Position numbers and translations under genes: made by a program. 64,000 nt of DNA from NCBI GenBank assembly GCA_037349105.1, contig JAYJMM010000116.1:3720001-3784000 (forward strand). Reading direction: 5' to 3'. This stretch comes from Limnomonas spitsbergensis. Taxonomy: Eukaryota; Chlorophyta; Chlorophyceae; Chlamydomonadales. This document shows, piece by piece, positions 1-63,944 of the stretch (the first letter of the stretch is position 1; each line of letters starts with the position of its first letter). The notes beneath the pieces are model-generated. The model was not told where the DNA came from. It worked only from the letters and a program-made list of their open reading frames with translations, and did no database searches.

Positions 1-769
1 CAAAACAACCAATTTGTTCCTCAAACAGCTGCATGCATTGCCTGCAACCTTATCCCCAATAACCATATTTTGTGCAGGTGATCTTGATAGGACGACAGCT
101 GTTTCGGATTGCAGATTGGGGTGCAGACACTGCCAGGGCCCACATGGAACATCCTTTGGTATCGTGCAGAAATCTTATGTAGACTGGACTGGTTTACGTC
201 TAGGGTTTAATGTGCCCTGCATAAACCCTGTTCCTCCTTTGATCTCATGCAGATGGAGAAGGGTTTAGGCACGGGATTCGGCATTAGCCCAACCCTATCT
301 CCTCCGACCCCCTGTAGACGGAACAAAATTTGGGCAACGCCTTTACCGCCTAAACCCTGTCCCGCCTGCATGAGATCATAGATTTGAACATTCCCAAGTC
401 CAACCCGTATCTCCCTCAACCTCCAGCAGACAGGACAAGGATTTATCTCCGACGCGCCAAATAAAGGCCGCCCCATTCCCTTCTTACAGAAACATCTTCC
501 ATGATGTCCAGAAGGCTCCCAAGCACCCCCCCCCTGATCTGTTGGAGGGGGCAGCACCTCCTCCCTTCCTTTGCGTTTCATTCTCCTGTTCAAGGCCAAC
601 CGTCCTACTCTGTGCGGTACCCTCACCTTGTCAACGATGATGTGCCACCCCCCAGCCTCCTGTTGGTGGGAACCCACCCCATTCCTCTTGTTCACCATCC
701 CATTCCTATTGGTGAGAACCCACCCCATTCCTCTTGTTCACCACACCGTCTACTGTGCGGTGTCCTCAC
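1..769 (-). other. Helicase intron 13 (left-edge intron), no exon found
   Basis: Downstream of the exon ending at 770 the next expected block is the rest of motif II plus the following residues (xHER...DFLL). I found no such coding block on the minus strand to position 1, so this is treated as intron. It contains short tandem duplications of a 'cccacc ccattcctcttgttcacca' type sequence and a decayed copy of the preceding exon end near 590-645. Confidence 0.6.
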
Positions 770-3700
770 CTCATCCACAATGATGTGTGACACCCCAGCC
801 AGCCAGGGATCACCCGCCAACCTCCTCAACAAGATACCTACATCAGAACCAGGGGCGAGGGTGTAAGCAGGAATCAACCAACAAGATTCATCACCTGTGT
901 TAAACAGGGGTCAGAAACCAGGCAGCAGCTGCTTGCAGCCCCCAGCCAGGCCCCCACCGTCCCCATATATTTGAAAGCAAGGGACCCGCACATGGCGCTA
1001 TGCTCGCGGAGCATGCCTAAAACAACAGTAATTATATACGAGTTCACTGACGGCCTGGCTCCGTCAGTGCACCCCTTGCTGTCATCCCCCGGCACCCGCC
1101 TGTGGTGCAGAAGGTGAGGCGTGTTGCCCTGTTGACGGTGGACTCCATTCGCACTTGGTAGGAGACGTGGCAGCCGTGGGCTTCTATACGCCTCTCACCC
1201 CTCTCAGCCGCCACCCTGATATAGGGCAGGGACAAGGGGGTGTGGGGGGGTGAGAGAGGGGCAAATCGTAATCTGCCTCTCATCCCTCTCAGCTGCCACC
1301 CTGATATAGGGCTGGGACAGGGGGGAGGGATGTGAGGGGCAAGGGGGCCTAATCCGCCTCTCACAGCTCTCAACTGCTACCTTCATGCGGACAGGCCGCA
1401 AGAGAGAGACAAAGGGGCAGTGGGAGAGGGATAAGGCGGCAGTGAGAAAGGAGCAGGGGGCAGTGAGGTCCCCGATTCAGATCCGCGGCATACCCTTGAT
1501 GCAAATTAAAGGCAGGCCACTCATGCGAATCAGCAGCATGCCACTCATGCAAATCAGCAGCATGCCACTCATGCAAAGTAGCAGCAAGTCCTTCAGGCAC
1601 ACAAACGGCATGCCCATCGGCACATCGGCGGCAGGCCCCGCATGCTTCTGCACGGCATGCCCAACCTCTCTGCAACTGATATTGCGGCGATCCTCCGCGG
1701 CTGCGTGCAGATGATGTTGGTGGCTGCAGCAGTGCCCATCTCCACAGCCTGCTCCAAGATGTATTGCGGCACCTGCGGGGGCGACACGGCGAAATGAGAT
1801 GACGCTATAAGCCAACACGTTGCAGGGCCCCAGAGCTAGGAGAAGGTGTGTCTCCTCCACATTGAGCACGAAATTATCGCCCATGCAAAGCACAAAGTCA
1901 CCTGCTCAGTCAGTTCGATAAATTGACGACCAGCTGTTGCTTTCACTGGCCCACATCATCTGCCTAGAAGCTTCCGAGAAGAATCTTGAGGATAAGATGA
2001 ACTAGACACAGGGTCAAGGCCAGGAGCAGCAGCATCATGCTTAAGCCTCTGCTTCAGATTATGCTAGGATTGTCACCGGAGGCGGTCTGGGGGCCCCCGG
2101 CTAGTTACAAGAGCGTCCGGGCAGCACCTCCCTGTACAGGAAAACCTGAAAACGGCAAACAGTTTCACCAGAGGTTACCCCAGGTACGCCTTAACACGTG
2201 CGTCATAAACTCGTAATTATCTGGGGCGCCTCCTGCCCTGGGTGCAGATGCGGCAGGGGGTGCAGGTGGGGCCTGCCCTGGGTGCTGATGTGGCAGGGGG
2301 GGTAGGTGGGGCCTGCCCTAGGTGCTGATGTGGCAGGGGGGGTAGGTGGGGCCTGTCCTAGGTGCTGATGTGGCAGGGGGGGGTAGGTGGGGCCTGTCCT
2401 GGGTGCTGATGTGGCAGGTGGGGTAGGTGGGGCCTGCCCTAGGTGCTGATGTGGCAGGTGGGGTAGGTGGGGCCTGTCCTAGGTGCTGATGTGGTAGAGG
2501 GTTTAGGTGGGGCCTGTCCTGGACGCTAATGTGTCAGAGAATGTAGGCAGGGTCCTGCCCTGGGTGCTAATTTGTCAAAGGGTGTAGGTGGGGTCTTGCC
2601 TGGGTCGTCTTCCCACATCCAGTGTCTCCGCAAACGATTATGACATCAGTTTCATGGAGCGCCTCGAGCAGCGGATCGCGCACCGCCACAATCGGCAGGC
2701 CCCCCCGCTTGCTCGCCATGGCCCGGCCCGCCTCGCTAGCGCGCCATGTCCGGTCCCGCTGCAGCATCTGCTCGCTCAGCCGCCGCGCCTCGTCCTCCCC
2801 GCGGGAAGGAGGCGCCCCGCCCGCTCCCTGCTCCCCGCTCGACACATCCCCCGGTCGCCGGGCAGCATCCCGCAGAGCAGAGGGCGCTGCCACATCCTCC
2901 CAGCTGTCCTGGCCTGCTGGGGGTGGGCCGCTGCGGGAGTTCGCACTGTTGCCGCCTGTTGCCTTGTCACTGCTGCTGCCAGCTACAGCCCGGGCGCCTG
3001 CAGCAGGCAGTCCCGAGGCTGACTTGCCAGCCAGGAGGCCCTGGACGAACTTGAGGCGCTCAGCCATCATCAGCTCTGTCTCCTGCTCAAGGTCTGGTCG
3101 CTGCTCGTCCCCGCTCTCCCACCTGCATGGGCAGGGGTTAAAGGGGTCAGGGGTCAGGGTTTAGGTTTGAGAATGCACAGCATTGGGACAAGTCTGGCAC
3201 CTGGAGGCGAAACAGCCTTACCTGACAAGTTGATACCCGCACATTTCTTTTGTTGAATAGCCGAGCTCGGAACTGCGGATGCAGGCTCCTCTTACAAGTG
3301 CCCAGTCAGGCTACAAAAGAATTGCTCAAGGTTGGCTGCCATGCACTGTGAAAGTCTGGTAACAACTGAAGGGTGCGACTCGATATGTGTGTTTAGGGGG
3401 GGGGGTCACCTTTGCCAGAGGCTCTGGAACTGAGGCGGCATGCTGGCGTGCAACGCTGGTTGGTCCGCACGGAGAAGCTCCCATAGGGCGCGGGTGGCGG
3501 CCTCATTTTGCGCCTCCTGGGAGGGGGAAAGGCAGGGCGCAGACTCAAGCAGTTGGGCAGTTGGGCAGTTGGGCAGGTGGGCAGGTGGGCACTCTGATTC
3601 AACAGGCGATTTTGGGGCTTGGAAATATGTGAGGCTTCCATTCTGGATTATGACACCCAGCTGGTGCTCTCAGCGCATGGAAATTCAGGTGGTAGGGCGT

Positions 3701-6700
3701 ATTGTTTATGGACCGTTTTCAGAGTAGGGCAATGGCAGGTAGTGACTGCCTGCCAGCCGTTTTTTTCCAGGCTGAAATACATAGAGTGCCTCGATTGGCG
3801 CGCGAAGCACCTTATTGGTCTATAAAGAACATCCATTGGAGGACCACAGGCAGGCATGTGGGTTAAATGCAAAGAGTTTTCATGGTTACACGCAGGCAGA
3901 TCGGAACCTGCATGCCACCAGAGCTTAAGATCCAATGGGGGGAAAGAGGGTGGGCGCCCTACCTGGATGCTGACAATGCTGGATCCATCTGGGGGGGTGA
4001 AGGTTCGCACTCCGAACAGGCCCTTCTTCTTATTCACGCCCCTGATCAGAGGTGGGTGGGGGCATCAAGGGAAAATGTAATGCATGCACAGTTGTGCAGA
4101 CAAACTGTCCAAGAGAGTGTGTCTCCTGGTATGAGATGAGCGGAACAGGATAACAAAGGGCGCCTATGGAGGTGGGGCTGCGGGTCACAGGTTTTTCATT
4201 TTCTCCTTCCGATGTAGAATGCGCCTAGGACAGTAACCCCAAAGCTACCAGCTGGTCCTGGCTTGACCCGAGCAGCTTGTTCAAAGCAGGTGAAGCTGTA
4301 AATACAAATGTGCCTTACGCTTTGCTGCGCGCATCGAGGAGGAGGAGGCAGTCCCTGCCATCTAGGAAATTGGGACCCCAGCCACCCTGGAGCCACATGA
4401 GCTGCAGGTACCGGTAACCATAAATGTACAGGCATGATAGGCATTTGAACAACAGATACGGTACTAAAAATAAGCCGCATCCCATGATAAGTTGACATAC
4501 GTGGAAAGCTTGCCACTTTTCGATTCATTTCGCCGGACAGGCTCGCACAGGGCCTCCCTCCGAGGGTATGATTCCAGATGCTTAGGACCTCACAACAAAA
4601 GCCAATCCTGAAGAATGAATAACCGGTTTGACTCACCTCGCCGGCCCCATATCGATGACGGCCGAGTAGCGCAGGCCCTCGCCCGTGCCTGCAGCCTCCT
4701 TCACGAGCCTCGGCTGAGCCCAGCCAGCTTTCTGGCAGTGCTGAGAGAGCAGTGCCAGCGGCTGCCGCTGCTCCACTGCCGGGGCCGCCTTGGCAGCCCG
4801 TCCGCCGGCCTTGGCAGCCTTGCCAGCCTTGGCACCCACGGACGCCGGGGGAGGGGCGCCGACCGGCGCCGACCTGTCGGCAGGGGCGCCGGCAGAGGGT
4901 AGGTCTGCCAGGCCAGAGTCTGCGCCGTCCCCAAAGAGGTCCAATTCAAAGGCCCAGAACTGATCCTCGTCCCTCTTAGCCGCCGGCTGGGCCGCCGCCG
5001 CCGCCGCACTGGCGAGCAGGCCGTCGCCGTCGCCGCCGCCGCCCGGGGCGCGCTGCTGCTCTTGCGGCTGCCTGCTGCCAAGCGGCGCAGCTTCTCCCTG
5101 GCCCGCCCCGCCGGTCGCTCCAGTGCCCTCGCTGCCCTCATCAAAAAGAGCCTCCTCATTTGGCTCCCATTCGTCCTCCTCGTCTAGCCAGGCGGGCTGA
5201 ACCACCGCAGCTCCGCCGCCGTCGTCGTCTTCCTCAACCGCCTCAGGCCTCTGCGGCCCGACAGGCCCATCCTCGTCAGCACCAGGTGCACCGGCATCAA
5301 ACTCCAAGGCCGGGTCCGCGAGATCAGATGCCGCACCACCTCCTGCAGTAGCAGCACTGATCTTCTGCGCAGGAACCGAAAAGTCTTGGGCTGTATCCAT
5401 ACCGACAGGCCGCTGTTGCTCCTGCTGAGGGGGCCGTTGCTGCTGTTGCTGCTGTTGCTGATGCTGCTGGTTGATGGCTACTGCGACAGCCTCGCTGAGT
5501 CCCATGCGTTCCATCTCGGTTTTTAAGTCCTTGATGAGCGTGCCTGCGTCCCTCTGCTTGCTTTTATCACCTGCAGAAAGAGCATCAGGGCATGCTTTCA
5601 GGGTATGCTTTCAGGGTATGCTTTCAGGGTATGCTTTCAGGGTATGCTTTCAGGGTGTGCTTTCAGGGTATGCTTTCAGGGTATGCTTTCAGGGTATGCT
5701 TTCAGGGTATGCTTTCAGGGTATGCTTCAGGGTATGCTTTCAGGGTATGCTTTCAGGGTATGCTTTCAGGGTATGCTTTCAGGGTATGCTTTCAGGGTAT
5801 GCTTTCAAGGGCATACTTTCAAGGGTATGCTTTCAGGGTATGCTTTCAAGGGTATGCTTTCAGGGCATGCTTTCAGGGTATGCTTTCAGGCCAGGGCATG
5901 CTTTCAGGCCAGGGCATGCGTTCAAACAAGGGCATTCAAACAAGGGCATGCTTTCAAGGGCAGGGGTGACTGAGAGGTTGTGTGCACGAGGAATGATCAG
6001 GAAGGCGTGCAAACGCTGTTACGGCTATCCCCAACAAGAAAAGGGACATGAATAAAAGGGACATGTTTAAAGGGAATAAACAGCGGGTTGGGGCAAATTG
6101 GAGCCACAGGCAGGCATATCCTAGGACAAAGGGCGCAACTGCCAGAGGCCGGCAGCCTGAGGTGCAAGTGCCTAGGCTCAATCCACACCAGACGTTTTGT
6201 TGAAGCATGGGCAGCCAAGATGCAACACCTTCTCCTTGCTTAACCGTATGCAGTTTGAAAGCTACCGGAAGTCGACTTGTCAGCGGGATCCAGAAGCATC
6301 AAACAGTCGGCGAAGCCTTTTTACAACGCTGGCCATGAAAGCGTGATGCAGGGGCCGAGGCCGACCGCCAGCGTTGCGAGTGGAAAGCACCACTGGCTTA
6401 CCTGAGGACTTTGCGAGTGCTGCGATGAAAAGCGCCACTGGCTTACCTGAGGACTTTGCCAGTGCTGCGCACATCTTGGCTCGAGCGTACTCCAACGAAA
6501 CCTGCTTCCTGCGCTCCTGCATAGCGTAATGGGATTGAAACAAGGGAGGAGGGCTAGGGACAAGTTTGCGACTCTTGTCTGAGAGCAGTGGCCCATCCCA
6601 ATCTACCTTTTATGGGGCGAAAAAGCTACAGTTAAACGACAGCAAGGCCTTCAGCCAGGGAAGCCTGGTGCAGCAAGCCCTGCCGCTGGGACCCTGGCCA

Positions 6701-9700
6701 TTAGGCGGTCAGGGTCTGGTCCCCATCAGCCCACATGTGTCTGCCTAGCAGCATGCCCAATACGTCTACTACCGGTATGCATAAAATGAACTCTATGAGA
6801 GCAATCTTGGACCTGCGGCATCCAAGCTCAAGCAGGAAGGCGCCCATCCCCGGACACAATGGTTCAGAACTCTTGCCTCAAGTAGGTCTGCCCGGCTGGC
6901 TGTCCATAAACTGAGGCCACCCTCTGCCGGCAGGTCCATACCGCGCTGCCCCACTAATTGATCGGCTACCTTGAGGTGGAGTGTAAAAAGTAAAAAGGGA
7001 AAAGTGAAAAGTAAAAAGTAAAGAGTAAAGAGTAGAAATGGAAAATATTCTCAGCTTATCCTGATGGGTCCTGACCGCACAGCCTAAATATTACACCTGA
7101 TATCACCCCTTAATATTACCCCTGATATTACCCCTGATATTACCCCTGATATTACCCCTGATATTACCCCTGATATTACCCCTGATATTACCCCTGATAT
7201 TACCCCTGATATTACCCCTGATATTACCCCTGATATTACCCCTGATATTACCCCTGATATTACCCCTGATATTACCCCTGATATTACCCCTGATATTACC
7301 CCTGATATCACCCCTGATATCACCCCTGATATTACCCCTGATATTACCCCTGATATTACCCCTGATATTACCCCTGATATTACCCCTGATATAACCCCTG
7401 ATATTACCCTTGATATTACCCCTGATATTACCCCTGATATTACCCCTGATATTACCCCTGATATTACCCCTGATATTACCCCTGATATTACCCTTGATAT
7501 CACCCCTGATATTACCCCTGATATTACCCCTGATATTACCCCTGATATTACCCCTGATATTACCCCTGATATTACCCCTGATATTACCCCTGATATTACC
7601 CCTGATATTACCCCTGATATTACCCCTGATATTACCCCTGATATTACCCCTGATATTACCCCTGATGTTACCCCTGATATTACCCCTGATATCACCCCTG
7701 ATATCACCCCTGATATTACCCCTGATATTACCCCTGATATTACCCCTGATATTACCCCTGATATTACCCCTGATATTACCCCTGATATAACCCCTGATAT
7801 TACCCTTGATATTACCCCTGATATTACCCCTGATATTACCCCTGATATTACCCCTGATATTACCCCTGATATTACCCCTGATATTACCCCTGATATTACC
7901 CCTGATATTACCCCTGATATTACCCCTGATATTACCCCTGATATTACCCCTGATATTACCCCTGATATTACCCCTGATATTACCCCTGATATTACCCCTG
8001 ATATTACCCCTGATATTACCCCTGATATTACCCCTGATATTACCCCTGATATTACCCCTGATATTACCCCTGATATTACCCCTGATATTACCCCTGATAT
8101 TACCCCTGATATTACCCCTGATATTACCCCTGATATAACCCCTGATATTACCCCTGATATTACCCCTGATATTACCCCTGATATTACCCCTGATATAACC
8201 CCTGATATTACCCTTGATATTACCCCTGATATTACCCCTGATATTACCCCTGATATTACCCCTGATATTACCCCTGATATTACCCCTGATATTACCCCTG
8301 ATATTACCCCTGATATTACCCCTGATATTACCCCTGATATTACCCCTGATATTACCCCTGATATTACCCCTGATATTACCCCTGATATTACCCCTGATAT
8401 TACCCTTGATATTACCCCTGATATTACCCCTGATATTACCCCTGATATTACCCTTGATATTACCCCTGATATTACCCCTGATATTACCCCTGATATTACC
8501 CCTGATATCACCCCTGATATTACCCCTGATATTACCCTTGATATTACCCCTGATATTACCCCTGATATTACCCCTGATATTACCCCTGATATTACCCCTG
8601 ATACTACCCCTGATATTACCCCTGATATTACCCCTGATATTACCCCTGATATTACCCCTGATATTACCCCTGATATTACCCTTGATATTACCCCTGATAT
8701 TACCCCTGATATTACCCCTGATATTACCCCTGATATTACCCCTGATATCACCCCTGATATTACCCCTGATATTACCGAGCACATTGGCCTGCCCTGCAAC
8801 CTCATCTCTGCTGGAGGATCCTTACCAAGGAGTCTCAGCCTCAGTCCCAGCCTTTCACAGCTCATACTGGCAGGTGCCACCAGCTCATCTCTTCTAGGAA
8901 TTTTAGCCTCGTCCATCCCACCAACACACCTCCTCGGGAAGCTTCCCTCGCTTCCGGTCAGCCTTGCGGCGCTGTACCTCACGAGGGTCCGCCCAGAGCT
9001 CCCAATCGTCCAGCTCTGCACTAGAGCTTGATCCCTGCAAGCAGAGGTGGCAGTGGTGGTAGTGGTGGCAGAGGTGGTATTGGCAGGGATGATTATGTTC
9101 AACCTACCAAACGTTTTGCACGTTTCACACACGCATCCACTGATCATGCTTCCCTCCTGCCAAAACCAAACAGGAATCCCCCCACTAAAAAAAACTTTTG
9201 TCCCCGTCTCAGTCCCTCTCCTGCAAGCAGGTGCACCGCCCACCCACCCACCCACACTCACTCACTCACCCATTCACCCACCCACCCACCCACACTCACT
9301 CACTCACCGAAAGCCTCTCAACGAAGCTTACTGTCGGAGTCGCTGTCACTCTCCTGCATGAAGTACAGATCCAAGCAGTTCCACACAACCTCACAACTTC
9401 ACACCTATTCACCCACAAAACGAGCCTCACTGTCCTCGCCGTCTCTCTCCTGCAAGTACTGCAGGATCCAAGCAGTTTCACGCATCTTCAAACCTTCAAA
9501 CCTGTCCACCCAATAGACCAACCTCACTCTCTTCACCGTCTCTCTCCTGCATGTCCTGCAGGATCCAAGCAGTGCCACACACCTCCACACCTATCCACAC
9601 ACACACACACCCACTTACCTCACTGTCTTCACTGTCTCTCTCCTGCATGAAGGACAGGATCCAAGCAGTTCCACACAACCTCACGCCTTCACACCTATCC

Positions 9701-23860: not shown

Positions 23861-23869
23861 CGCCTAATT

Positions 23870-25260: not shown

Positions 25261-25399
25261 TTGCTCTCAACTGATCCCTGAAGTCCTCACATACACTGAA
25301 GAAGATCCGTTGGCCAAAGAGTACAAAACGTGAAGTCAATCAACAAATCAACAAGGGGCCCTCGTCCAAACAAACGGCTTCACAGCAAGCACGGCCATT

Positions 25400-27446
25400 T
25401 CAGGCCAAGTGCACCGAGAGACCTTGGAAGCTCGAGCCCAGCACAGGGAAGTAGTAGTGCACCACGTGTGCAGCAGCTCCGGCTGCGTCACCTCCCCGCG
25501 AGCCGCCCAACAAGCCCGGCCGGCGGCCCCAGCTCCCGGCACCCAGCCTGCGCTCCCGCCTCGCCAATCGCCCCTGCCGCACCAGCATTGCCAGCAGCTG
25601 GCGGCAGCTCCCAGGGCACACCGCGTCCATCTGTTGCACCACCGCCTGCTCGGACAGGCCCGGGTGCCGGTCAACCAGCGCCAGCATGCGTCGTGTCAGG
25701 CCGTTCAGCATCGGCGCGTTGACCTTGCCCAGATGGTCCAGCCAAGGCCTCAGCGGTACCTCTGAGGGAGCCTCAGCCTCGCCAGCAGCGCCGACACTTG
25801 AGGCACACGTGGCAGCCGGGCCACCTGCTGCGGCAGCCGGCTGTGCTGCCGGGCGCACGTGGACCAACGTCTGGCTGTGCTCCGAAGCCACCAGGTGCTC
25901 CTCCAGAAACCCTGTCAGGTTGCGCACCAGCCCATGCGCCAGCAGTGCCCGCATCGCCCTCCTCACAGCTGATGCATGGGCTGCATCACAGGCGCACTCC
26001 GCCGCTGCTCTCTCCTCGCTGCTGTCCCCCGCACCCTTCGGGGCCTCATCCGCTTTACCGAGAGCCACATGCTCTTTCAGGAGCGCCGGCAGGGTGAGGC
26101 CCTCCGAGCCTGCGCCACGGATGAGCTTCAGGCATGCCGAGGTGCACTCAGAATCTGTGCCGACGAAGGACGACGCCTTGTCGCTGGTCCTGGTCGGGCC
26201 GTGGCCTGGCGGAGAGCAAGCGTCCAGGCAAGCAGCCTCTGCGGCAACACGCACGTCGGCATCGATGGCCACGGCACCGGGCGCAAACATAGGATGCGTG
26301 ACGTCCGCACCCAAGCTCGCTCCCTCTCCTCCATTCCACTGGTGTCCCAGGGCCTCTGTCCCACCCCTGGCACGAGGCTCGGTCCGTGACCGAGCCGCCC
26401 CCCCGTGCTCCCCCGCGGGCCCAGAGCTGAGCTCAATCACCACATCCACGTGCAACGGCCCGGTTAGCGCCATCACGTCCGCCAGCGCTTGCTTCACGTC
26501 CACACAAGGCCGCATCTTGAGCGTGCTGCGGGTCGTGGCCGCAAGCACCGCCGCAACGAGTTCCGCCGGGACCTCCGGGACGCTGTCCACCAGGACGCGC
26601 CCGCGCTCCATGTCCAAGTGCACCAGGTCATCCAGCCAGGGGGGCGCCTCAGGGCCGCCTGTGGATGCCGGCTGGCCACTGCCGCCGCCGCTGCCGCCCG
26701 CCGCGACCACCATCATGGCGTCGCCGGCAGCGGGATGGTTGTCCATGGGCCCCTGGGCTGGAGAGGAGAGCGAGCGGCGTCCCGAACGGACGCGGGACAG
26801 CACGTGGCAGCTGGCAGCTGCGGTGGCCTGGAGCAGGCCTGCAGGGTAGATCTCGCCCTGTCCCGATAACAACCGGTTGCGGGCGCCCACGGACATGGCG
26901 AATGGGTTGGGGCCATTGGCAGGGTTGACCTGGGCAAAGGGAAGGGCAGGGATGGGGATGTCATGGGCGAATGTGAAATAGAGTGTGGGACGGGTGACTG
27001 GGTGTAGGTTGGAATAGGTTAACGCTCAACTATCCCAGGCCTATGCCTTGGGGAGGCAAGGGCAAGGACTGAAAGCAAACGCAATGGGAGCTGGGCCATC
27101 TTGGCTTACTAGTATAAAAGCATGTTTTTAATTTATTGAAAAGCATACAACACCGGTTGTCATAAAAACATGTTTTGGGGGGGAAATACCGGTTTACGGT
27201 ACCGGTATTTTTATCGATATAAACTTATAATCATTTCCGTTTTCTATACAAGAAAAGACGCTTCCACCCTCCTCAACAAAGCAGAGGCTTCAAGCCACAT
27301 GTTAGACGCACCCAGCCGGCCGCCCGCAGCTCCCCAAACGCCCGCTTTATCTCCTCCTCGCTGAACCGCGCTGCCAGGGCTTCGGCGCTGCTGGCCGGCA
27401 GGGGGCGACAGGACGCCGACTCGCCCAGCACCATCAGAGAGCGGAC
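25400..27446 (-). CDS. GTF3C1: GTF3C1-like C-terminal exons
   Basis: The exon at 27312-27446 encodes [12 protein letters not shown]...[18 protein letters not shown], which matches the C-terminal helix-turn-helix region of plant TFIIIC1. The last exon (25400-26929) starts [20 protein letters not shown], has a low-complexity linker, and ends with the conserved tail [20 protein letters not shown]...[20 protein letters not shown]. The donor after 27312 is GTGCGT and the acceptor before 26929 is TTTGCCCAG; both exons are in phase 0. A plus-strand open frame of 387 codons over the same DNA is an antisense shadow. Confidence 0.85.
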
Positions 27447-54400: not shown

Positions 54401-57400
54401 TACAAGGGAGCAGAGCAAGGAGGGAAGGTAGGAAGCAGGGAGGGGAGGGAGGGTAGGAAGCAAAGAGGCCGGGCAGGGAGGGAGGGATGCAGGGCAGGGA
54501 AGGAAGCAAGGAATCAGAGCCAGAAGCTCAGGAACATCTACAAGGGAGCAGGGCAAGGAGGGAGGGATGCAAGGAGGGGAGGGAGGGTAGGAGGCAAGGA
54601 GGCCGGGCAGGGAGGGAGGGATGCAGGGCAGTGAAGGAAGCAAGGAAGCAGAGCCAGGAGCTCGGGAACTACTAGAGAGCAGGGCAAGGAGAGAGGGTGC
54701 TACAAGATGTTGTTTGAGGTGCATACCGGAGCACGCACGTGTGGCCACGACTGGACCGATGAGGACCAAAGCTAGACCAGTCCTGCATGGCTGGAGGGCT
54801 GCACACTGAGCAGAAAAAGCTGCCTGCACCAGGCCCGCTTTCCCGTAGGCCGTGAGCCTGAGATGTAGCTGATGAGATGTTGCGGGGTGTTGCAGGATGT
54901 TGCAGGATGTTGCAGATGTTGCAGGATCGCACTTTAACCAACATGTTTGCTGAACTGCTTACTTCTGCATGCAGTGAATACTGGTTTACTAGTGCAGTGA
55001 GACCGGAGGATAAACCGGCTCTAGAACGGTGCGTCATGCGTTCACACAGTCTGGGCACACGGCCGAGTCACCTTTGCCTGGGAATGTTTCCCTCAGACGC
55101 TCCTTGCCCTCGATGTTGCGCGATGTGAACAGGTACTGCAGCTGCTCCCAGTACCTACCAGGGGCACAGGAGGACAGCGGAAGGAAAGTCTCACATACAT
55201 CAGAGTATCAGACACCGGTTATGCACAGTTCTAAACATACATCAGACACTGCTACCATGCAACACTCCAACGGAGGCGTCGTGAAAGCCTGGCCTGTGTC
55301 ATGCGCATGCATGCAGCAGAACCATCCCGGCGCGGAAGCCTGGGAGACTCTTCAATGGGGTGCTTATGAGAACCAAAGCTGCCAATGGTACCTGACTACA
55401 ATGTTTCTTTTTCCGGCTACCAGTTCACCTTGGGCAGGCTCTCCTGCGGCCGTCAGAGGACCCATCAGGACAAAACCTGGACCGGCCTACGGCCGGCGGC
55501 AAAAGCAGCATGCCTCGCTACAAATGGGGTCACCGGACAGAGGCCAAAGTGTTGCTGACATGTAGCTGAGACACGAGAACAAAAACTGCCTGACCAACCT
55601 GCGGACAGGTGCAGAGCCACCACAGAGCACTAGCTGTTGCAGTGCATGCAGAGGCTACCAGCGAGGGTACAGCCTTGAGCCAGCATACACACCGCACACA
55701 CGCACACACGTCCTTACCGTTCAAACGCTGCCGCGCCGTCTGGGCCGTTCAAGTCAAACGCCACGCGCGTGGACTGCCGCCCCTCCCGACCAGCGGCCTC
55801 TGCCTCGCGTCCGGCCAGCAGGACGGCAATGTTGGTCGTGTGCGGCGGGCGGTGCTGGGGCAGAGCTGACGGCCGCTCCCGGGCGGCCCCGCCGTCCCCT
55901 CCCGCAGCCTGCAGCGCTTTCTTCTCCAAATCCTCTCCACTGCCGCCGCCCCCCTCTTCGGGCTCTGGCTCGGGCGTCGGTGTCGCCGCTGCCTGCTTCT
56001 TCCTCCTCTTCTTCTGCTTCTTGCTCAACGGCGGCTCTTCCTCGTCCTCGTCGGCGCCCTCCAGAGCTGTTGGGTCGATTCCAATGGGCTCCTCGATCAA
56101 GGCTGGGGCGGAGCGAGGCAGCGATTAGGAGAGGGGCGATACCCAATGCACAGCAGTCAGGAGAGGGGGCAGTGCGGGTGTGCAGCATGGTAGAGGGGGC
56201 AGTATGGAGGTACAACGATGACAGAGGGGGCAGTTTAGGGTGTACAATATGATGGACAGGGCAGTACGAGTGTACAGCATGAGAGAGGGGGCAGTACGGG
56301 TTGTACAATATGACAGAGAGGGCAGCATGAGGTGCACAGTGAATTGGGCAGACATCAGGATCCATCATGGGCAATGCGCCAAAGCGATGAGTTGATTTGA
56401 TTTGAGTGACTGCAAGCAATCTGCGACAGACACGCTGCAATGTTTAGATCTATCAGACATCGTCAGAGCAAGATAAATTTAGAACCCTAGAATCCGTTGA
56501 AACCACGGCAGGTTGGTGTTATTTGGGAATACGGGCCTGGGCAATGAATTCAAGTCGAGTGCGTGTCTCAAGGATCTAGTGTAAGAGCACATGCCTCCTC
56601 CCAAGTTTGGCCAAGGCTTCGACCACTCCACACGCCACTTCGCAGAGCCTCTGTGCCTTTAAAAGTCAGTTCACTACTCATTGCCTGATGTCTCTCTTTG
56701 GGCACAGGCACAAACGGGAGCCGATATCTTCCACTCTTTGAATCGATCAGTAAAAGGGGTTACACTAATCAGGCTCCTCTCCGGATGCTCATGAGTCATG
56801 ATCACTGCTGGTGTTCCCTGCGTGCCACTCTTTCACAGCGTAGTGGAAATACTTGTGTAGCCCTGCTTCTTGCCCTCATGATTGGGGACCATGCCCCCCC
56901 CCCCTGTCCTACCCTCATAAAGCATCACAGCACGCCCCCCACATCCCCTCATATTGCCATGAAGCATCATCATAGCAGACCCCCTCCTACCCTCAGGTCG
57001 CGCCACAAACTGCAGCTCTGAGTTGGTGGAGTTCCCGACGTCCTTGGTCCACGTCGCGGCCTCCACGAGCACATCCATCAGCCCAAGCCTGTAAAGGAAG
57101 AGGGGGTCAAAAGATGAGGCACGGTCTTAACAGCCGCGTTCGTCTCTTTTAAACTCATCCTCATGCTCATAATCTAGCCCTGCTGCTTGAACCACCAGGC
57201 ATAGAGGCAGGTCGAGGTTACGGGTCTCCATGGAACCACAGGTAGCCGCCCAGAAGCCTGCCAAAGGTGGTCTACTTTGCCTCTTTCTCCGTGACTCAGC
57301 TGCATATTTCAGCTAGGATCCCACTGTCCGCCAGAGGCCCCAGGTGTAACCAGTAAACCAGCCATGCTGCTAGGGCCGCCAGCCAAAAGACGGTCCAGGT

Positions 57401-60400
57401 TTGGTCCCCATCCGGCCCCTGACGGCCGCGGAGCGTCCTGCTGATTGTGGCCGTGTTGCCGAAAAAATGAACACTGGTGGTCTGATGTGCACTAACAACA
57501 CCTGGCACTCCTACTCAGGATATTTACCAACATGTGCGTCAGGGTGCTCCGGCTAACTTCTTTACCGCCTACGGCCGTGAGAACCTGGTACGGCTAGCTA
57601 CAGCACCATCAACCCTATACCCTAGATTGCACCCTGACCCCAGGTCGTAACGGACGCCATCAACCCTATACCCTAGACTGCACCCTGACCCCAGGTTGTA
57701 ACGGACGCCACCAACCCTATACCCTATACTGCACCCTGACCCCAGGTCGTAACGGATGCCACCAACCCTACACCCTAGACCACAGCCTGAGTCCCTGACC
57801 CCAAGGCAGCAGCGGATGCCAACGACCCTCCCCCTTTCCACCCGATCTCCATTGAGGCAGCAGACGCAAATCCCCCTAACGGCTGGCGCATCAAGTTGGG
57901 GGTGAGGCCGGTTGGGGGGGGGGGGGGTCCAGAGGCACACCATCTATCATGATGTATGACGGCGTTGGCATCATCCCTGGTTGATAAGTTATCAGCTTTT
58001 ATTAACGCATTCCCTGCCTGCACATCAAGTGGAGGGAGCTCCAGTGGTGTAACAGCTAAAAGGATGCACATCACATATTTTATGTATGGTCACTCTTCCT
58101 TGGCTGGCGCCCCTCTGAAACCTATTAACCCTGTGACGTGCTAGATATCTCAAGCTGTGGTGTTTCCACCTTTTACCATTGTGTCTCATCCCCTGGCATT
58201 TAGCCAATTGTTCCGAAACCCGGAATTTCAGTTAAGCCCATTTCATAATGATAAAACATTTGTTTTAAACGCCCCCCTACCTGCGCATCAGGGTGAGTGA
58301 GTTCCAGAGGCGTGTGCGGTAGCCTGCGTCAAACATCGCCGTCATCTGCTGCGGGGTGAGGTCGGACATTTTGCGTGTCTCTGACTGGCACAGTGCTGTC
58401 AAGGCTGCCGGTCGCTCCAAGGAGGTGCCCAGGACCTGTGGAGGCAGGGGAGGCAGTTGGGGGGGGTCCTTAGGGAGGCAGGGGAGGCAGGTGGGGGTTC
58501 CTCAGGGAGGCAGGGGAGGCAGGTGGGGAGGGTCCTTAGGGAGGCAGGGGAGGCAGGTGGGGAGGGTCCTTAGGGGGCCAGGGGAGGCAGGTGGGGGGGG
58601 GGGGTCCTTAGGGAGACAGGGGAGGCAGGTGGGGGGGGGGTCCTTAGGGAGGCAGGGGAGGCAGGTGGGAGGGGGGTCCTTAGGGGGGCAGGGGAGACAG
58701 GTGGGGGGGGGGGTCCTTAGGGAGGCAGGGGAGGCAGGTGGGGGGGGGTCCTTAGGGAGGCAGGGGAGGCAGTTGGGGGGGGTCCTTAGGGAGGCAGGGG
58801 AGGCAGGTGGGGGGGGTCCTTAGGGGGGCAGGGGAGGCAGGTGGGGAGGGTCCTTAGGGAGGCAGGGGAGGCAGGTGGGGGGGGGGGGTCCTAAGGGAGG
58901 CAGGGGAGGCAGGTGGGGGGGGGGGGGTCCTTAGGGAGGCAGGGGAGGCAGGTGGGGGGGTCCTTAGGGAGGCAGGGGAGGCAGGTGGGGGGGTCCTTAG
59001 GGAGGCAGGGGAGGCAGGTGGGGGGGGGGGATCCTTAGGGAGGCAGGGGAGGCAGGTGGGGGGGGGGTCCTCAGGGAGGCAGGGGAGGCAGGTGGGAGGG
59101 GGGTCCTTAGGGAGGCAGGGGAGGCAGGTGGGGGGGGGTCCTTAGGGAGGCAGGGGAGGCAGGTGGGGGGGGGTCCTTAGGGAGGCAGGGGAGGCAGGTG
59201 GGAGGGGGGTCCTTAGGGAGGCAGGGGAGGCAGGTGGGGGGGGGGGGGTCCTTAGGGAGGCAGGGGAGGCAGGTGGGGGGGGGGGTCCTTAGGGAGGCAG
59301 GGGAGGCAGGTGGGGGGGGGGTCCTTAGGGAGGCAGGGGAGGCAGGTGGGGAGGGTCCTTAGGGGTTCCTTTGGGGGTGGGGAGGGTCTTTAGGGAGGGA
59401 AGGTGGGGAGGGTCCTTAGAGGGTCCTTCGGTGGTGGTTAGGGTCCTTCGGGAGCGAAGGTGGGGAGGGTCCTTCGGGGTCCCTGGGGGGGGTCTTTAGG
59501 GGGGGAGGGTCCTTATGGAGGGGGACTGGGGGAGGTCTGAAGTACCTAGCAGCTGTTGAGGTCGGCAGGTTGGGCAGGAGGGGGAAGGGAGGGGCCTTGC
59601 ACCTCCATTATTTCTGGTCTGGTACAGTACCCGCAAACAAACGCATGCCATCCCGTAAACAGGGCTGGTGAAAACAGGGGGAAATCACGACCTGGCAGGG
59701 GGGACAAAAATCCTGCGCAGAGGTGAAAAGAGGAAAACATCACAACCAGACAAAAGAGCCAAACGAAACTTGCAACTCCCCGAAAACCCCAAGCTCTTCT
59801 CAGCGGGTGGTCAGGCAGGAACGGTGACCCCCTTGCAATCCCACCTGCATTGCTTGCTGCAACGTCAACGAGTTCAGGAGCTGACTGACGCTGAACATGT
59901 ACTGCTCATGCACAACAGATCCAGGTCCGTGACCCCCCAGGAGAACCATTGCGGATCCAGTTCCGGGCATGATCCCCTCCGGGGCTCCCGACACTCCTCC
60001 TGGAGGGGCGGCGCTCAGCACTTCTGACGCCTCAGCGACGTCTGGTGCACTCCCTCCGACCTCTGCGCTGCTGGCTGGTGGCGCAGCTTGCTTGCTCCCT
60101 TTCATTTCTGCGCTGCTGGCTGGTGGCGCAGCCTGCTTGCTCCCTTCCATTTCTGCACTGCTGGCTGGGGGCGCTGTCTGCTTGCTCCCTTCAACCTCTG
60201 TACTGCTGGCGGGGGGCGCTGCCTGCTTGCTGCCTTCGTTCTTGTTACCTCTGGCTGGGAGCGCTGCCTGCTTGCTGCCTTCGTTCTTTTTACCGCTGGC
60301 TGCGGGCGCTGCCTGCTTGCTGCCTTTGTTCTTTCTACCACTAGCTGGAGGTGCTGCCAACGCCTCAGGAGCCTCGTCACTGCTGGCTGGGGGTGCTGTC

Positions 60401-63400
60401 TGCTCGCTGCCGTTATCCTGTTTACTGCTGGCTGGGGGCCCTGCCACCGACCTAGTAGCCACACCACCACCACCTCCCTCCCGCTCAGAGACCGCGTCAA
60501 TTTCTGGCTGCTCCTGCTGCTCCGAGACCATGCCAGCCCCTGGCTGCTCTGGCTGCTCCATGACCGCGACAGTGCCTGGCTGCTCATGCTGCTGCATGAC
60601 CGCGACAGTGCCTTGCTGCTGCTCCGAGACCGCGTCAGCGCCCTGCTGCTCCTGCTGCTCCGAGACCACGTTTAGCTGCTCCTGCTGCCCCGCTTGCCCC
60701 TGCGCCAAACCTGCAGGGCAAAAGAGTGCGACGTCATTGTGAGAGTACGAGCTTACCCAGCTCAGCGCAGTGTCCTTGGCTCCTTGCTGCCCGCCTTAAC
60801 ATAGACTGCTCTAGGCTCGGAGGCGGATTCAGCCTATACGCATGCCAGTGTTTTTTTGATTGGAGAAAAGGATGTGGCTGGCGCGATACCGAGTTTTGTC
60901 CGCAAATATCCAGGTTTTTGTTGGTAGAGACCCGTTGCTTATTACCCCAGGATACCTCCACATTTGAATGTCAAGGTGGCCTTCAAATCACTCATAGGAA
61001 CAGCCTGGGAACCATGAAAAGCTGAAGAAAGCTGCCCAACAGCCCCGGAATGGCCAACGCACCCCTGCGCGTTGCTCTAACAGCAATCCTGCCTGCTGCT
61101 ATTACATGACTCACCTCGAAAATTGCCAGGGGGGGCTCTCCCATTCAGGGTCGAGTCATAACCACGAATCAGGGTCGAGTCAAACCACTTAACAGGGTCG
61201 AGTCAAAACCACGAATCTGCCTCTTAAACCACTCCGCGGCAATGTCACCAACGCGTCTTCCCACTGGAAAGGGAAACAACAGGACTGACCGATCAGGTTG
61301 CAGATGGCCTGGTGCAGTATCCTGGCCCGTGTGATCTTGGCCACGACGTAGCCGTTGCGGACGAGGCGCTCTGCGGCCTCAGTCGCCTCCTTGCGCGAGT
61401 TGTAAGGAAGCAGGGAGGAGGCACTGGGATGGGAGGCTCCGAGACCGCCGACCAGGGCCGCGTAACCAATCTCCTCCGAGGCCACCGCAGCGGCGTCGGC
61501 AAGGCCCCCCAGTGGCCGCAGCGCCAAAGTCCAGTCAGGCGGCAGCAGCGGCAGCAGCCGCGCACCGCCCTCGGCAGGCGCAGTGGCCGCATCGGCGGAG
61601 GCAGCACTGATGTACGGCCTCCTGAAATAATGGAAAAAATTAACGGCATGGTACCGGTGGACAATGAAGCTTTGTCAAAAGTCATCATATGAATCGAGGG
61701 CACCCCAGGACAGGCCTTACACGCACTCAATCTAGAGCGCCCCAGCACTCACCTGGCACTGCCGGATCAAATGTCCTCCGAGTGCTGATGGCCAGCCCAT
61801 GCTACCCAGCCTAAGCCAGTCGCAAACCCACGCCACAGCCCACCCAAGCCCATCTCACTCAGCGCGGAGCCCATGACTTCGGACATTGCTCCTGTGGCAA
61901 CACTATTACAAATCCAAGCTTTTCCAAAAACCCTTAGCTAATAACCCAGACCATGACGTCCGATCTTATCTTGCTGCCCTGCCCGAGGTGCTTCATGTCC
62001 AGCAAGCGCTCTCATGGTCAGCCTATGCTGTAGCCACGGGACCCATCCCACTCCGTGCGGAGCCCATGCTGCCCAATTTTAGCTAACAGCCCTGCCCTTA
62101 ACGCCCAATCTTCGCTCGTCGCACCGCCCATGATGCCCTCTGTTCACCAAGCGCTGACAGTCAGCCCATGCTGCAGCAACCCGCCCATCCCACCGCGCCC
62201 ATTTCACCATGCCCATCCCACCGTGCCCATCCCACCTGGCAACGACTCGGTCCGGGAGCAGGGAGGCGATGTGGTCCATCGTCGGCACTTGCAGCTTGAG
62301 CTCCGCCTCGGCGCGCTCTGCAAAGACCCGAGCCGAGCTCTCGTGGCGGCTGGTGTACTCAAAGTTGACAATGTAAGTGGAGATCTGCATAGTGACAACG
62401 GTTTAGGGTTAAGGGTTGAGGGTTTAGGTGTTCTCGAAGTTGATAATGTAGGTGGAGATCTGCATAGTGAAAACGGTTTAGGGTTAAGGGTTGAGGGTTT
62501 AGGTGTTCTCGAAGTTGACAACGTAGGTGGAGATCTGCATAGTGACAAGGGCTCAGGGGTAAGGGTGAAGGTGTACTCAAAGTTGACAATGTACCGGTGG
62601 TGGAGATCTGCACAGTGACAAGGGTTTAGGGTTAAGTGCTTCGGGTTTAGGTGTACTCAAAATTGAAAGTGTAGGTGGAGATCTGCACAGGGACAAGGGT
62701 TCAGGGTTTAGGTGAACTAAAAAATGACAATGTAGGTGGAGATCTGCACAGGGACAAGGTCAGGGCATTTTGGGACATCAATGACAGCTCCCTGGCTGTA
62801 CCGTGTCTAACTGCGTAGATAACTCTTTCATGTTGAAACATGATACATATTGATCATCTGAGAGGGGAGGGGATGAGGGGCTAGATTTCTGCTGAGTCCA
62901 TGACCATATGTTCACGGTGCACTTCAATCTACAAGATATCATTTGCTTCTCTTAGAGGGTACATGCTCAGAAAACAATGTCATGGTATTGCACATGAAGC
63001 ATGGCGGCGGACCGTCTTCCAGAAGTGCACTATGTGGGAGTGGGCAGGCACAGGTGACGAGAGCAGATCAGGGTGACAGACACAGACTCTTCAGAGCCCT
63101 AAAGAGTCACGGCTCAGTATACCCCCCTCCCCACCTCACCCCCATCCACTGCCCCCAACATAAAAAAGAGAAGGACGGAAGCCTGAGAGAATTCAATTAT
63201 AAAGTCTGGCCATATAGCCGGCAGCATCGCCGCACAAATCAACAGCCAAACCAAGTCCTGAACATTGACCTCCCCCCGCTTGGCCCCCCCTCACCTCCTG
63301 GACCAGGCGGTCATCCACAACGAGGTCGGGCAGCAAAAGGACCTCCGCCTGGCAGTGGGAGATGGAGAATGAGAGGGCAGACATAGTTAAGGTGCTTAAG

Positions 63401-63536
63401 TTGAAGGCGAGGACATCATGCAAGCTGCTGCAGCAGCAGCAGTAGCAGCAGAAGGACCTCCGCCTGACAGTGGGGATTGGGTAATGAGAGGGCAGTCATA
63501 GTTAAGGTGCTTAAGTTGAAGGTGAGCAAATCATGC

Positions 63537-63575
<39 letters not shown>

Positions 63576-63944
63576 AACCTCCGCCTGACAGTGGGGGATT
63601 AAGGAATGAGAGGGCAAACATAGTAAAGGTGCTATACGGTAGTTGGAGGTGCGCACATCATGCAAGCTGCAGCAGAAGGACCTACGCCTGACAAGGGCGG
63701 GAGGTGGGGTGGGGGATTAGGGGTCATTGCCAATGTGGTGCCTGGAGATGAGGGGGACGACCTGGGCAGGGTGGTATGCCTTTGAGGTTCACGGTTTGCA
63801 CAAGCGACTCCCACGGGACTTAAGACTCACAGGCCCCAGCGAGGGCCAGCCCCCGCATGAAGCAGCGCAGCAGCCGGACATCGTCACTCATGAGCAAGTC
63901 GCCCTTGAAGAGGGCACTCACCCCCTCCCTCCTACCAACTCCCT
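25400..63944 (-). CDS. GTF3C1: TFIIIC subunit 1 (B-block binding, GTF3C1-like), long minus-strand gene, 5' end beyond the right edge
   Basis: At least 17 exons with consistent phases span over 38 kb: (63831-about 63944, uncertain), 63295-63348, 62236-62384, 61290-61621, 59845-60710, 58281-58435, 56991-57088, 55718-56102, 55072-55154, 54242-54399, (52972-53063, probable), 52258-52592, 51040-52054, 50466-50714, 49549-49602, 27312-27446 and 25400-26929 with TGA at 25400-25402. Known exons give about 1,900 residues; plant homologues are about 1,800 and human GTF3C1 about 2,100. TFIIIC recognises the B box of tRNA-type promoters and recruits TFIIIB for RNA polymerase III. The identity rests on ordered blocks: [63 protein letters not shown] and [20 protein letters not shown]. 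One join, between 54242 and 53063, is unresolved. Confidence 0.85.
27709..49385. repeat. 36-bp satellite array, about 600 copies, inside a GTF3C1-like intron
   Basis: The plus-strand unit starts CTAAGTAGCAGTGAGCATGG and is 36 bp long. It runs almost uninterrupted for about 21.7 kb, 98% of the 22.1-kb intron 27,447-49,548. Variation is confined to a few positions: CTAAG/CTGAA, GATGCC/GATACC/GTTGCC/GAACGCC, TACC/TGCC, GGCT/GTCT, plus occasional 35-bp units missing one base (GGGGTGCC). The ends decay into AAGGCTGAATAGCTGGGAGC-type units near 28,030 and 49,320. Long minus-strand open frames (up to 1,617 codons, [12 protein letters not shown] repeats) arise only because 36 is divisible by three. 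No spacers or genes are present. Confidence 0.97.
31140..41500. repeat. Higher-order duplication within the 36-bp array (2,585- and 5,177-bp periods)
   Basis: A rare ACCAAAGG variant occurs at 29171, 31756 and 36933: spacings of 2,585 and 5,177 bp. A rare TTGCCCACC variant at 35532 and 40709 is again 5,177 bp apart. 2,585 equals 72 units and 5,177 equals 144 units, each less seven bases. Each block begins with seven alternating 35-bp units (for example 36,318-36,750). Recent segmental amplification is implied. Confidence 0.85.
49386..49548 (-). other. Intron flank between satellite and the 54-nt GTF3C1 exon
   Basis: Short unique sequence with no repeat unit or gene; the donor GTGCGC of the 49549-49602 exon lies at its right edge. 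Confidence 0.6.
49549..53063 (-). CDS. GTF3C1: GTF3C1-like middle exons, including the Myb/SANT-like block
   Basis: The exon at 52972-53063 ([20 protein letters not shown]...RRQQKRQ) enters in phase 1, but the exon before it exits in phase 0. A small exon in the 86-bp repeat array, or use of one of its TTTG|GTAGGG donors, is needed to connect them. The exon at 52258-52592 is basic. The 1,015-nt exon (51040-52054) holds [20 protein letters not shown] and [20 protein letters not shown], the SANT-like region of TFIIIC. The exon at 50466-50714 has [20 protein letters not shown]. The 54-nt exon at 49549-49602 ([18 protein letters not shown]) continues directly into [12 protein letters not shown] at 27446. 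This places the satellite array inside one intron. Confidence 0.8.
52790..52945. repeat. Dispersed GC-rich repeat copy in GTF3C1 intron
   Basis: CCAGCCATGCTGCTTTGGCC, GGCCAGTCCAGGATTGGTCC, CACGGCCGCGGGGCGTCCTG and AAAGCTGGACTTG are the family blocks. It lies between the exons at 52972-53063 and 52258-52592. Confidence 0.6.
53290..54245 (-). repeat. About 86-bp tandem array downstream of GTF3C1 exon ending 54242
   Basis: Seven good units and one diverged unit (near 53340), each with GACTGAGCACGTCATGACCC and CTACCAAAGCTCGCAGATGC on the plus strand. On the gene strand every unit carries TTTG|GTAGGG, a donor-like site that would supply the phase needed by the next exon. The array may therefore be a multiplied exon-intron junction. 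Confidence 0.75.
54242..63944 (-). CDS. GTF3C1: GTF3C1-like N-terminal and central exons
   Basis: In order of translation: [20 protein letters not shown] (63831 and up), [38 protein letters not shown], a 332-nt exon ending [20 protein letters not shown], and an 866-nt exon. The 866-nt exon starts with a Gln-rich segment, holds six to seven imperfect 15-16-residue repeats rich in Lys/Ala/Pro/Ser, and ends [20 protein letters not shown]. Then come [40 protein letters not shown], an acidic-then-basic linker ([12 protein letters not shown]), and [20 protein letters not shown]. The last exon of this block is [20 protein letters not shown], ending YAQ at 54242. The pattern of winged-helix-like blocks separated by charged linkers agrees with TFIIIC1. 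The repeat-rich insertion is not conserved in the family as far as I know. Confidence 0.8.
54383..54680 (-). repeat. Triplicated acceptor plus exon start (GTF3C1 exon 54242-54399)
   Basis: The acceptor CTTGTAG followed by VPELLAL (54399) is copied upstream at about 54512-54545 (CTTGTAG then VPELLAL) and 54650-54672 (CTAGTAG then VPELLAL). The copies are separated by GGGAGGGAGG-rich sequence. Confidence 0.8.
56160..56350. repeat. Tandem repeat of about 35-40 bp
   Basis: About five imperfect units with GAGGGGGCAGTACGGGT and TGTACAATATGA lie in the GTF3C1 intron upstream (gene sense) of the exon at 55718-56102. Confidence 0.65.
57295..57490. repeat. Dispersed GC-rich repeat copy
   Basis: CCAGCCATGCTGCTAGGGCC, ACGGTCCAGGTTTGGTCCCC, TGACGGCCGCGGAGCGTCCT and ATGAACACTGGTGGTCTG give one of the most complete copies of the family, about 195 bp. 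Confidence 0.6.
57595..57790. repeat. About 55-bp tandem repeat
   Basis: Four copies of a unit containing AACCCTATACCCTAGA and CACCCTGACCCCAGGT in the GTF3C1 intron between the exons at 58281 and 57088. Confidence 0.7.
58437..59400 (-). repeat. GGAGGCAGG-rich tandem array, about 35 bp units, next to a GTF3C1 acceptor
   Basis: About 26 units of GGTCCTTAGGGAGGCAGGGG with variable G runs. On the gene strand each unit ends GCCTCCCTAAGGACC, resembling the genuine acceptor of the adjacent exon (GCCTCCACAG|GTCC at 58435). The array therefore looks like multiplied, decayed acceptors. Confidence 0.8.
60040..60360 (-). repeat. In-frame 45-48-bp coding repeats in GTF3C1 exon
   Basis: Six to seven imperfect copies of a block reading like [15 protein letters not shown] lie inside the 866-nt exon. 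The reading frame is kept across all copies. They add about 100 residues of low-complexity, lysine/alanine-rich linker. Confidence 0.75.
62355..62760 (-). repeat. Six tandem copies of acceptor plus exon start (GTF3C1 exon 62236-62384)
   Basis: The genuine start [17 protein letters not shown] at 62384 has five upstream copies at about 62430-62470, 62506-62545, 62570-62615, 62652-62693 and 62713-62753. Each has (T/C)GCAG|ATCTCCACC and a decaying version of the coding start. Spacers hold GGGTTTAGG-type telomere-like motifs. Confidence 0.85.
63335..63725 (-). repeat. Four tandem copies of acceptor plus exon start, with CAG microsatellite (GTF3C1 exon 63295-63348)
   Basis: The acceptor CTGCCAG|GCGGAGGTCCTTTTGCTG at 63348 is copied at about 63452-63545, 63577-63668 and 63676-63700 with CTGTCAG acceptors. 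The copies are joined by (CAG)n tracts, the longest at about 63537-63575. Confidence 0.85.

Follow-up and report, generated by a model that had tools for sequence, protein, structure and literature searches.

Tandem copies of exon-intron junctions in genes of the green alga Limnomonas spitsbergensis

Introduction

Minisatellite-like tandem duplications that run across 5' and 3' intron-exon boundaries, many of their units carrying AG/GT, have been described in the Adh3 and globin genes of amphioxus under the name of mirages (PMC3087553, available part of the article). Arrays that share this anatomy were found in a 64,000-nucleotide stretch of the genome of the green alga Limnomonas spitsbergensis (NCBI GenBank assembly GCA_037349105.1, contig JAYJMM010000116.1, positions 3,720,001 to 3,784,000; hereafter the window), which holds a P-protein/ArsB-like transporter gene and parts of a DExH-box helicase gene and of the gene for TFIIIC1. 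In the alga, as in amphioxus, the repeat unit spans the exon-intron boundary (at 15 of the 88 window junctions tested), and both donor and acceptor boundaries are affected (9 and 6, respectively). The two systems differ in that the present arrays were found in at least six genes of a green alga and were measured against chance and against the intron background, whereas the amphioxus report, in its available part, includes transcripts and allelic variation, the basis of the present account being reading frames and protein homology.

The remaining comparisons also refer to the available parts of the articles cited. In the Rogers model and in the case of the potato RdRp gene (PMC4974935), sequence containing splice signals is likewise duplicated in tandem; new introns are the outcome there, whereas in the alga existing introns lengthen and their ends are not copies of the opposite exon. 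Internal tandem repeats in human segmental duplications (PMC2812944) share the expansion of minisatellites at exon boundaries and coding units that are mostly in-frame, but they result in exon elongation or new introns, while the algal exon appears unchanged and the addition is intronic. Introners (PMC9860276) also provide large numbers of intron-related repeats within one genome; they are dispersed over many loci, whereas the sole algal array searched genome-wide gave 6 matches, all at its own locus (one candidate place was scored). A literature search, with subscription journals mostly outside it, showed no report of boundary-spanning minisatellites in algae among the papers listed. L. spitsbergensis groups with Chlamydomonas sp. 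UWO 241 in the available part of a published genome study, which gives a genome GC content of 54.15% (PMC11228838).

Results

Copies of splice junctions in the window

A first-pass annotation, made from the letters of the window, had listed 13 junctions in the three genes that appeared to be tandemly repeated into the adjacent intron, and had proposed as a check a self-alignment of introns against their flanking junctions, with shuffled introns for comparison. The test set comprised 44 window introns with 88 junctions, including 12 of the 13 listed. The 40-nt coding flank of each junction was aligned to its own intron and to 100 dinucleotide shuffles of that intron. In this test 13 of the 88 junctions outscored all 100 shuffles, about 0.9 being expected by chance; they comprised 11 of the 12 listed junctions together with 19665 and 58281. 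For the twelfth, acceptor 15523, P was 0.02. Donor 770 was tested separately because its intron leaves the window, the next helicase exon lying 1,244 nt further, beyond the window; in that 1,244-nt intron a copy matching 22 of 27 bases was found (P 0.002, 500 mononucleotide shuffles).

The same junctions were searched with a duplication scanner, which collects ungapped high-identity windows not more than 1,500 nt apart after removal of low-complexity sequence; a junction was scored when 12 or more of its coding bases were copied. The 9 donors and 6 acceptors mentioned above were obtained in this way. The lengths of coding sequence copied are given in Table 1, to which weak copies at donor 58281 (30 nt) and acceptor 17354 (12 nt) are to be added. 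Alignment, scanner and the separate test of 770 agree with the first-pass annotation that each of the 13 listed junctions has a recognisable copy in the adjacent intron. The junction-spanning tandem copies are real and recurrent, are present in further genes (see below), and each such duplication lengthens its intron.

The statement that the copies often keep a usable site was also borne out: 23 of 31 window copies lie within 2 score units of the functional site when shifts of up to 8 nt are allowed. Decay of the copies with distance was seen only partly, the six copies at 20237 being similarly close throughout. That the introns are built from junction copies proved too strong a description, as junction-touching clusters were found in 14 of 43 introns and make up 16.4% of the 25,879 bp in all 43 (the 23-kb intron set aside), inner clusters accounting for 24.4%.

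A helicase exon at 4401-4319, rejected by the final frame check, was included in most of the junction, profile and placement analyses, where it splits one intron. It contributes 2 of the 88 junctions, both copy-free; without it the set consists of 43 introns and 86 junctions. Three exon edges were shifted by 1-6 nt after testing (the start of P-protein exon 8 and the ends of TFIIIC1 exons 7 and 11).

Splice sites inside the copies

Splice sites were scored with position weights learned from this genome. At donor 20237 the functional site and the six inner donors all score 5.6, and the inner units of this array look alike in sequence (a visual comparison in a single haplotype). For acceptor 62384 the functional site scores 6.4 and the five inner copies 6.4-7.3. 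The splice sites are weakened in the copies of 15676 and in the far copy of 54399, and the site is lost in the copy of 15523. Retention of the donor GT was not above background (0.86 vs 0.74, P 0.24; 14 junctions). The gene finder described below was misled by the copies: it ran into those at 6447 and 15676 and used an inner donor after 770. Junction copies of this kind therefore call for caution in gene prediction.

Occurrence beyond the window

The window belongs to C116, a contig of 6.46 Mb; the whole genome comprises 124 contigs and 260,226,709 bases. A further 170 kb was sampled from the flanks on C116, from C116 at 1.0 Mb and from five other contigs. This genome sample is small and uneven, which is one of the main uncertainties of the analysis. 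Exons outside the window were predicted with a simple self-trained ab initio gene finder, which recovered most of the hand-modelled window exons and made errors at some repeats.

Introns with junction copies numbered 13 of 43 in the window, 8 of 65 in the C116 flanks, 8 of 17 at 1.0 Mb on C116 and 1 of 34 on the five other contigs. Junction copies extend to further genes, but unevenly, and the pervasive process suggested by the annotation is not supported as a uniform one: 29 of 125 introns were affected on C116 versus 1 of 34 on the other contigs (Fisher P 0.006). This contig or this region may be unusual. The rate of junction copies tracks the inner duplication load across nine blocks (Spearman 0.79, P 0.011). 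In the samples, locally duplicated sequence makes up 20-41% of intron bases on C116 versus 5-12% on C124, C120, C117, C112 and C108. Outside the window, junction-touching clusters occupy 12.1% and inner clusters 14.9% of 78,140 bp (116 introns).

Eighteen junction events were obtained outside the window, a nineteenth in the same list belonging to junction 63348. Twelve of them lie in genes with Pfam-matched products: xanthine-dehydrogenase-like (8), TFIIIC1, in its upstream exons (2), SecA (1) and citrate synthase (1). The other six are less sure, and one of these, in intron 13680-17153 of the 1.0-Mb block, is probably a falsely predicted repetitive exon. In the xanthine-dehydrogenase-like gene, the acceptor copy in intron 3750-4002 of C116:1000001-1020000 differs from the exon, by eye, in mostly silent or conservative codon changes; the copy might be an older, once-used piece of an alternative exon. 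The gene chain of the same block starts with reverse-transcriptase-like sequence beside this gene (by eye), probably a retroelement fused by the gene finder.

Unit lengths and telomere-like spacers

Unit lengths were compared among the rows of Tandem Repeats Finder (TRF) output with units of at least 9 bp. The unit was divisible by three in 13 of 16 exonic rows, 20 of 51 intronic rows, 3 of 9 junction rows and 2 of 8 rows elsewhere; for exons against introns and junctions together, Fisher's exact test gave P 0.0039, several rows describing the same array. Among coding arrays, the repeats in one TFIIIC1 exon (60050-60692, Table 1) are the clearest. Junction arrays resemble the intronic ones in unit length, showing no bias to multiples of three. 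One kind of mutation seems to hit exons and introns alike, with mainly frame-preserving events remaining in exons.

Degenerate telomere-like repeats (TTTAGGG type) serve as spacers in three junction arrays (14593-14660, 21577-21679 and 62406-62707). The sequence GGGTTTAGGG occurs 16 times in the 234-kb sample, against 0.5 expected, and outside the window mostly without junction copies nearby. Of the eight AGGGTT/AACCCT clusters of the window, seven are distributed over three copy-bearing introns (14574, 21549 and 62384), and the eighth lies in the intron after 770. Break repair at telomere-like spacers was considered as a source of the copies and dropped, 16 of 21 intronic AGGGTT/AACCCT clusters outside the window being located in introns without junction copies.

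Placement of duplications relative to junctions

Coverage by local duplications was profiled by distance from the junctions. At window donors it was 0-0.03 at 75-200 nt into the exon and 0.23 over the final 10 exon bases; the first 45 bases of the intron gave 0.20-0.25, and deeper positions 0.28-0.41. At window acceptors the edge gave 0.15, the adjoining 45 bases of the intron 0.16-0.21 and deeper positions no more than 0.33. No marked peak was detected at the junctions in the window profile. In the ab initio models, real junctions showed no clear excess of copies over intronic pseudo-junctions: donor-like and acceptor-like pseudo-junctions gave 16.9% and 14.4%, against 11.8% and 5.9% for real ones, in the window (34 predicted introns), and 10.0% and 8.4% against 5.1% and 11.1% outside it (117 predicted introns, including one, later dropped, that ends at junction 63348).

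The positions of the clusters were then compared with a null in which whole clusters were placed uniformly, overlap with exons being allowed if the splice site was preserved; the length of intron required inside the duplicated unit, at least 6 nt for donors and at least 25 nt for acceptors, was chosen by us. Wholly exonic clusters, introns longer than 6,000 nt, predicted genes with a total score below 40, and predicted introns that were shorter than 40 nt or longer than 5,000 nt, or had a neighbouring exon scoring 4 or less, were excluded, and clusters covering at least 90% of an exon were not scored as protruding. Clusters protruding into exons numbered 17 of 34 in the window, with 7.1 expected (P 0.00015), and 40 of 89 outside, with 19.1 expected.

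This excess of 2.1-2.4-fold falls to 1.3-1.5-fold once a conserved exon partner is taken to double detectability; the expected share was doubled because a copy partnered with an exon should diverge about half as fast as a pair of intronic copies. The excess resides mainly in older clusters, with 51 protruding against 23.0 expected among the 101 at less than 90% identity. Among the 22 clusters of at least 90% identity, 6 protruded against 3.3 expected, which was not significant (P 0.09). A large part of the excess, perhaps not all of it, needs no junction-specific process.

Genes and arrays of the window

The P-protein model has a single clean frame of 747 amino acids, or 749 once the start of exon 8 is moved to 16494, a change made because the homologues read GQLQKTG. 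It shows 49-56% identity to its four closest homologues; the closest named relative, with 52% identity, is that of Chlamydomonas sp. UWO 241, and Raphidocelis and Monoraphidium come next. With exon 4401-4319 omitted, the helicase reads in a clean frame between exon 3, whose start is tentative, and junction 770, and its motor region was aligned to DHX36 chains through junctions 1215 and 770. The TFIIIC1 frame is single and clean from exon 2 onwards; exon 1 (63942-63831) fails to join in frame and was skipped by the gene finder. The N-terminal TFIIIC1 exons to the right of the window match B-block_TFIIIC (Pfam).

The 23,019-nt intron of TFIIIC1 consists mostly of a 36-bp satellite (27722-49379, about 602 copies), and at 7088-8776 a helicase intron contains an array in which a 12-bp unit (ATATTACCCCTG) recurs about 141 times. 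Three window introns, at 19665, 2600 and 1100, have likely GC donors (CAG|GC...). An Rfam scan of the window gave nothing at gathering scores.

Table 1. Genes and junction arrays of the window, with the length of coding sequence copied as given by the scanner.
Feature	Positions	Strand	Evidence	Copied coding sequence (nt)
DExH-box helicase gene, 5' part, runs off the left window end	1..11469	-	exon models, frame check, DEAD Pfam match, DHX36 alignment	
Donor 770, copy; functional exon ends HIIVDE, copy reads HIIVDK (by eye)	611..657	-	shuffle test, helicase motif alignment	
Acceptor 1215, two copies	1275..1381	-	alignment	30
40-bp array touching donor 2600, about 6 coding bases included	2232..2605	-	TRF, cluster list	
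45-bp tandem duplication over donor 6447; copy 6377-6421	6367..6469	-	TRF	27
97-bp array over donor 9728; three resolved copies 9410-9465, 9506-9562, 9617-9649	9345..9772	-	TRF	53
P-protein/ArsB-like transporter gene, 18 exons	12063..22474	+	clean frame, homologues	
Donor 14574, copy; telomere-like CCCTTAACCC spacers between	14668..14711	+	alignment	33
Acceptor 15523, decayed copy, 18/22 coding bases	15269..15307	+	alignment	22
141/142-bp tandem duplication over donor 15676; copy 15788-15829	15650..15931	+	TRF	38
Donor 16609, two copies, 39/40 and 35/40 coding bases	16675..16842	+	alignment	47
Exon end 19665, partial copy without splice site; absent from the first-pass list	19716..19733	+	alignment	22
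86-bp array, donor 20237 and six intronic copies	20199..20775	+	TRF, alignment	64
Donor 21549, copy	21599..21622	+	alignment	24
TFIIIC1 gene, 3' part, 15 modelled exons (first uncertain), 23,019-nt intron	25404..63942	-	exon models, frame check	
134-bp array, acceptor 54399 and two copies	54376..54697	-	TRF, alignment	31
For contrast: TFIIIC1 coding-exon tandem repeats, units 45, 36, 66 and 30 bp, all divisible by three	60050..60692	-	TRF	
75-bp array, acceptor 62384 and five intronic copies	62352..62757	-	TRF, alignment	40
115-bp array, acceptor 63348 and three copies	63330..63707	-	TRF, alignment	26

Discussion

The arrays are probably the product of general tandem duplication and selection, the junction copies being the part that straddles exon borders. 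In favour of this are the excess of copies over chance, the lack of a marked junction peak in the window profile, pseudo-junction rates similar to those of real junctions, the correlation with inner duplication load, the frame bias of exonic units, the concentration of the placement excess in older clusters and the matches of the one array searched genome-wide, all at its own locus. According to this explanation, the alga would generate many tandem duplications and minisatellites in gene regions, with units mostly of 10-150 bp. In coding sequence almost only in-frame duplications would survive, and in introns nearly all of them. A duplication straddling a junction would be tolerated because the exon stays intact as long as the outermost splice site, that is the first donor or the last acceptor, is the one the spliceosome keeps. 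The extra copies would then turn into intron, bringing along a short piece of coding sequence as well as a splice site, and the arrays may afterwards expand, homogenise and decay. Use of the outermost site is the presumed rule; that the inner copies are passed over is suggested by the reading frames and by protein homology. The extra copies would be neutral, and the duplications themselves could arise by slippage or unequal exchange. As to the suggestion that this intron growth is perhaps ongoing, the process is probably recent, since in some copies 38-39 of the 40 coding bases match. The mechanism would be an ordinary one as far as the sequence shows; arrays of this kind are rarely reported.

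Several observations weigh against this explanation. Acceptor-side exon interiors in the window reach a coverage of 0.15 at 150-200 nt inside, which we ascribe to coding repeats, and outside the window exon interiors show 0.18-0.28, partly perhaps due to false exons; the models there are ab initio and some of their exons doubtful. The donor profile outside the window is not monotone, dropping from 0.16 at the edge to 0.09 at an intron depth of 30-60 nt and reaching 0.26 far inside the intron. A residual excess of protruding clusters persists after the two-fold correction, both in the window (17 vs 11.7, P 0.046) and outside (40 vs 31.5, P 0.039), and the factor of two, assumed and not measured, is another main uncertainty. 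Over 16 junctions the acceptor AG is retained in 0.91 of cases, where neighbouring base pairs would predict 0.68 (P 0.014). Such over-retention is not predicted by plain neutrality; it was observed in the same data and needs an independent sample.

Some of these points are what would be expected if junctions attracted duplication, for example through breaks linked to transcription or splicing, so that introns grew preferentially from their ends. The excess over uniform placement, the modest part of it that survives correction and the shallow local rise at donors beyond the window all agree with such targeting. We nevertheless regard it as unlikely, since the window profile has no marked peak, pseudo-junctions are not clearly exceeded and the clusters of highest identity show no significant excess; as the correction also takes away much of the excess in the window, a special process at junctions, as implied by the first-pass annotation, is not supported. 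General duplication would give the same appearance, junctions looking favoured because the conserved exon partner keeps copies recognisable for longer than intron-intron ones. A reading of the copies as duplicated exons or alternative exon ends, spliced in a regulated or occasional fashion, is still less likely. The inner sites at 20237 and 62384 score like the functional ones, the acceptor AG is over-retained, the xanthine-dehydrogenase-like acceptor copy differs mainly silently or conservatively, and the gene finder took inner sites at 770, 6447 and 15676. Against this, P-protein homologues lack extra residues at six of the seven clear copied junctions (15523, 15676, 16609, 19665, 20237 and 21549 are gap-free in an alignment with seven homologues), the seventh, exon end 14574, sitting in a variable stretch; use of the 770 copy would change the helicase DEVH motif to DKVH; and the units of junction arrays are not biased to multiples of three.

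The annotation had also related the copies to models in which introns are born through duplication of AGGT-containing exon segments. The copies do hold exon ends with GT directly behind them, or exon starts preceded by AG, but the Rogers model requires that the 5' end of the intron resemble the start of the downstream exon and its 3' end the end of the upstream exon. With mismatched pairs as the null, the former was seen in 1 of 154 introns (0.3 expected) and the latter in none of 154 (0.45 expected), so that the signature stands at background and this origin is highly improbable. In the same test, resemblance between adjacent ends did stand out: 10 of 154 introns showed it for the upstream exon end and the intron start (0.65 expected), and 3 of 154 for the intron end and the start of the downstream exon (0.35 expected); these resemblances are the junction-copy signal itself. 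High-identity tandem repeats are prone to mis-assembly and the arrays are known from the assembly alone, yet collapsed or stacked haplotypes are a very improbable source, most copies diverging by about 5-25% from the exon through distinct changes.

A stronger proposal, which we consider rather unlikely, is that junctions are truly preferred sites of duplication, that introns lengthen from their ends and that decoys of equal strength are silenced by a strict rule of the outermost site (the first of seven donors, the last of six acceptors). If it were true, it would point to exon definition in a protist with long introns, and over-retention of the acceptor AG would be a sign of copies that still serve as alternative sites.

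Arrays of this kind make useful natural experiments on how splice sites are chosen, since they supply pre-mRNAs in which up to seven nearly identical sites follow one another. They would show which copy the spliceosome takes and how introns can lengthen without damage to the protein. Conspicuously long introns occur across the core-Reinhardtinia, their cause not being known according to the available part of a Chlamydomonas comparison (PMC8226300), and tandem growth of the kind described here could be a contributor to them.

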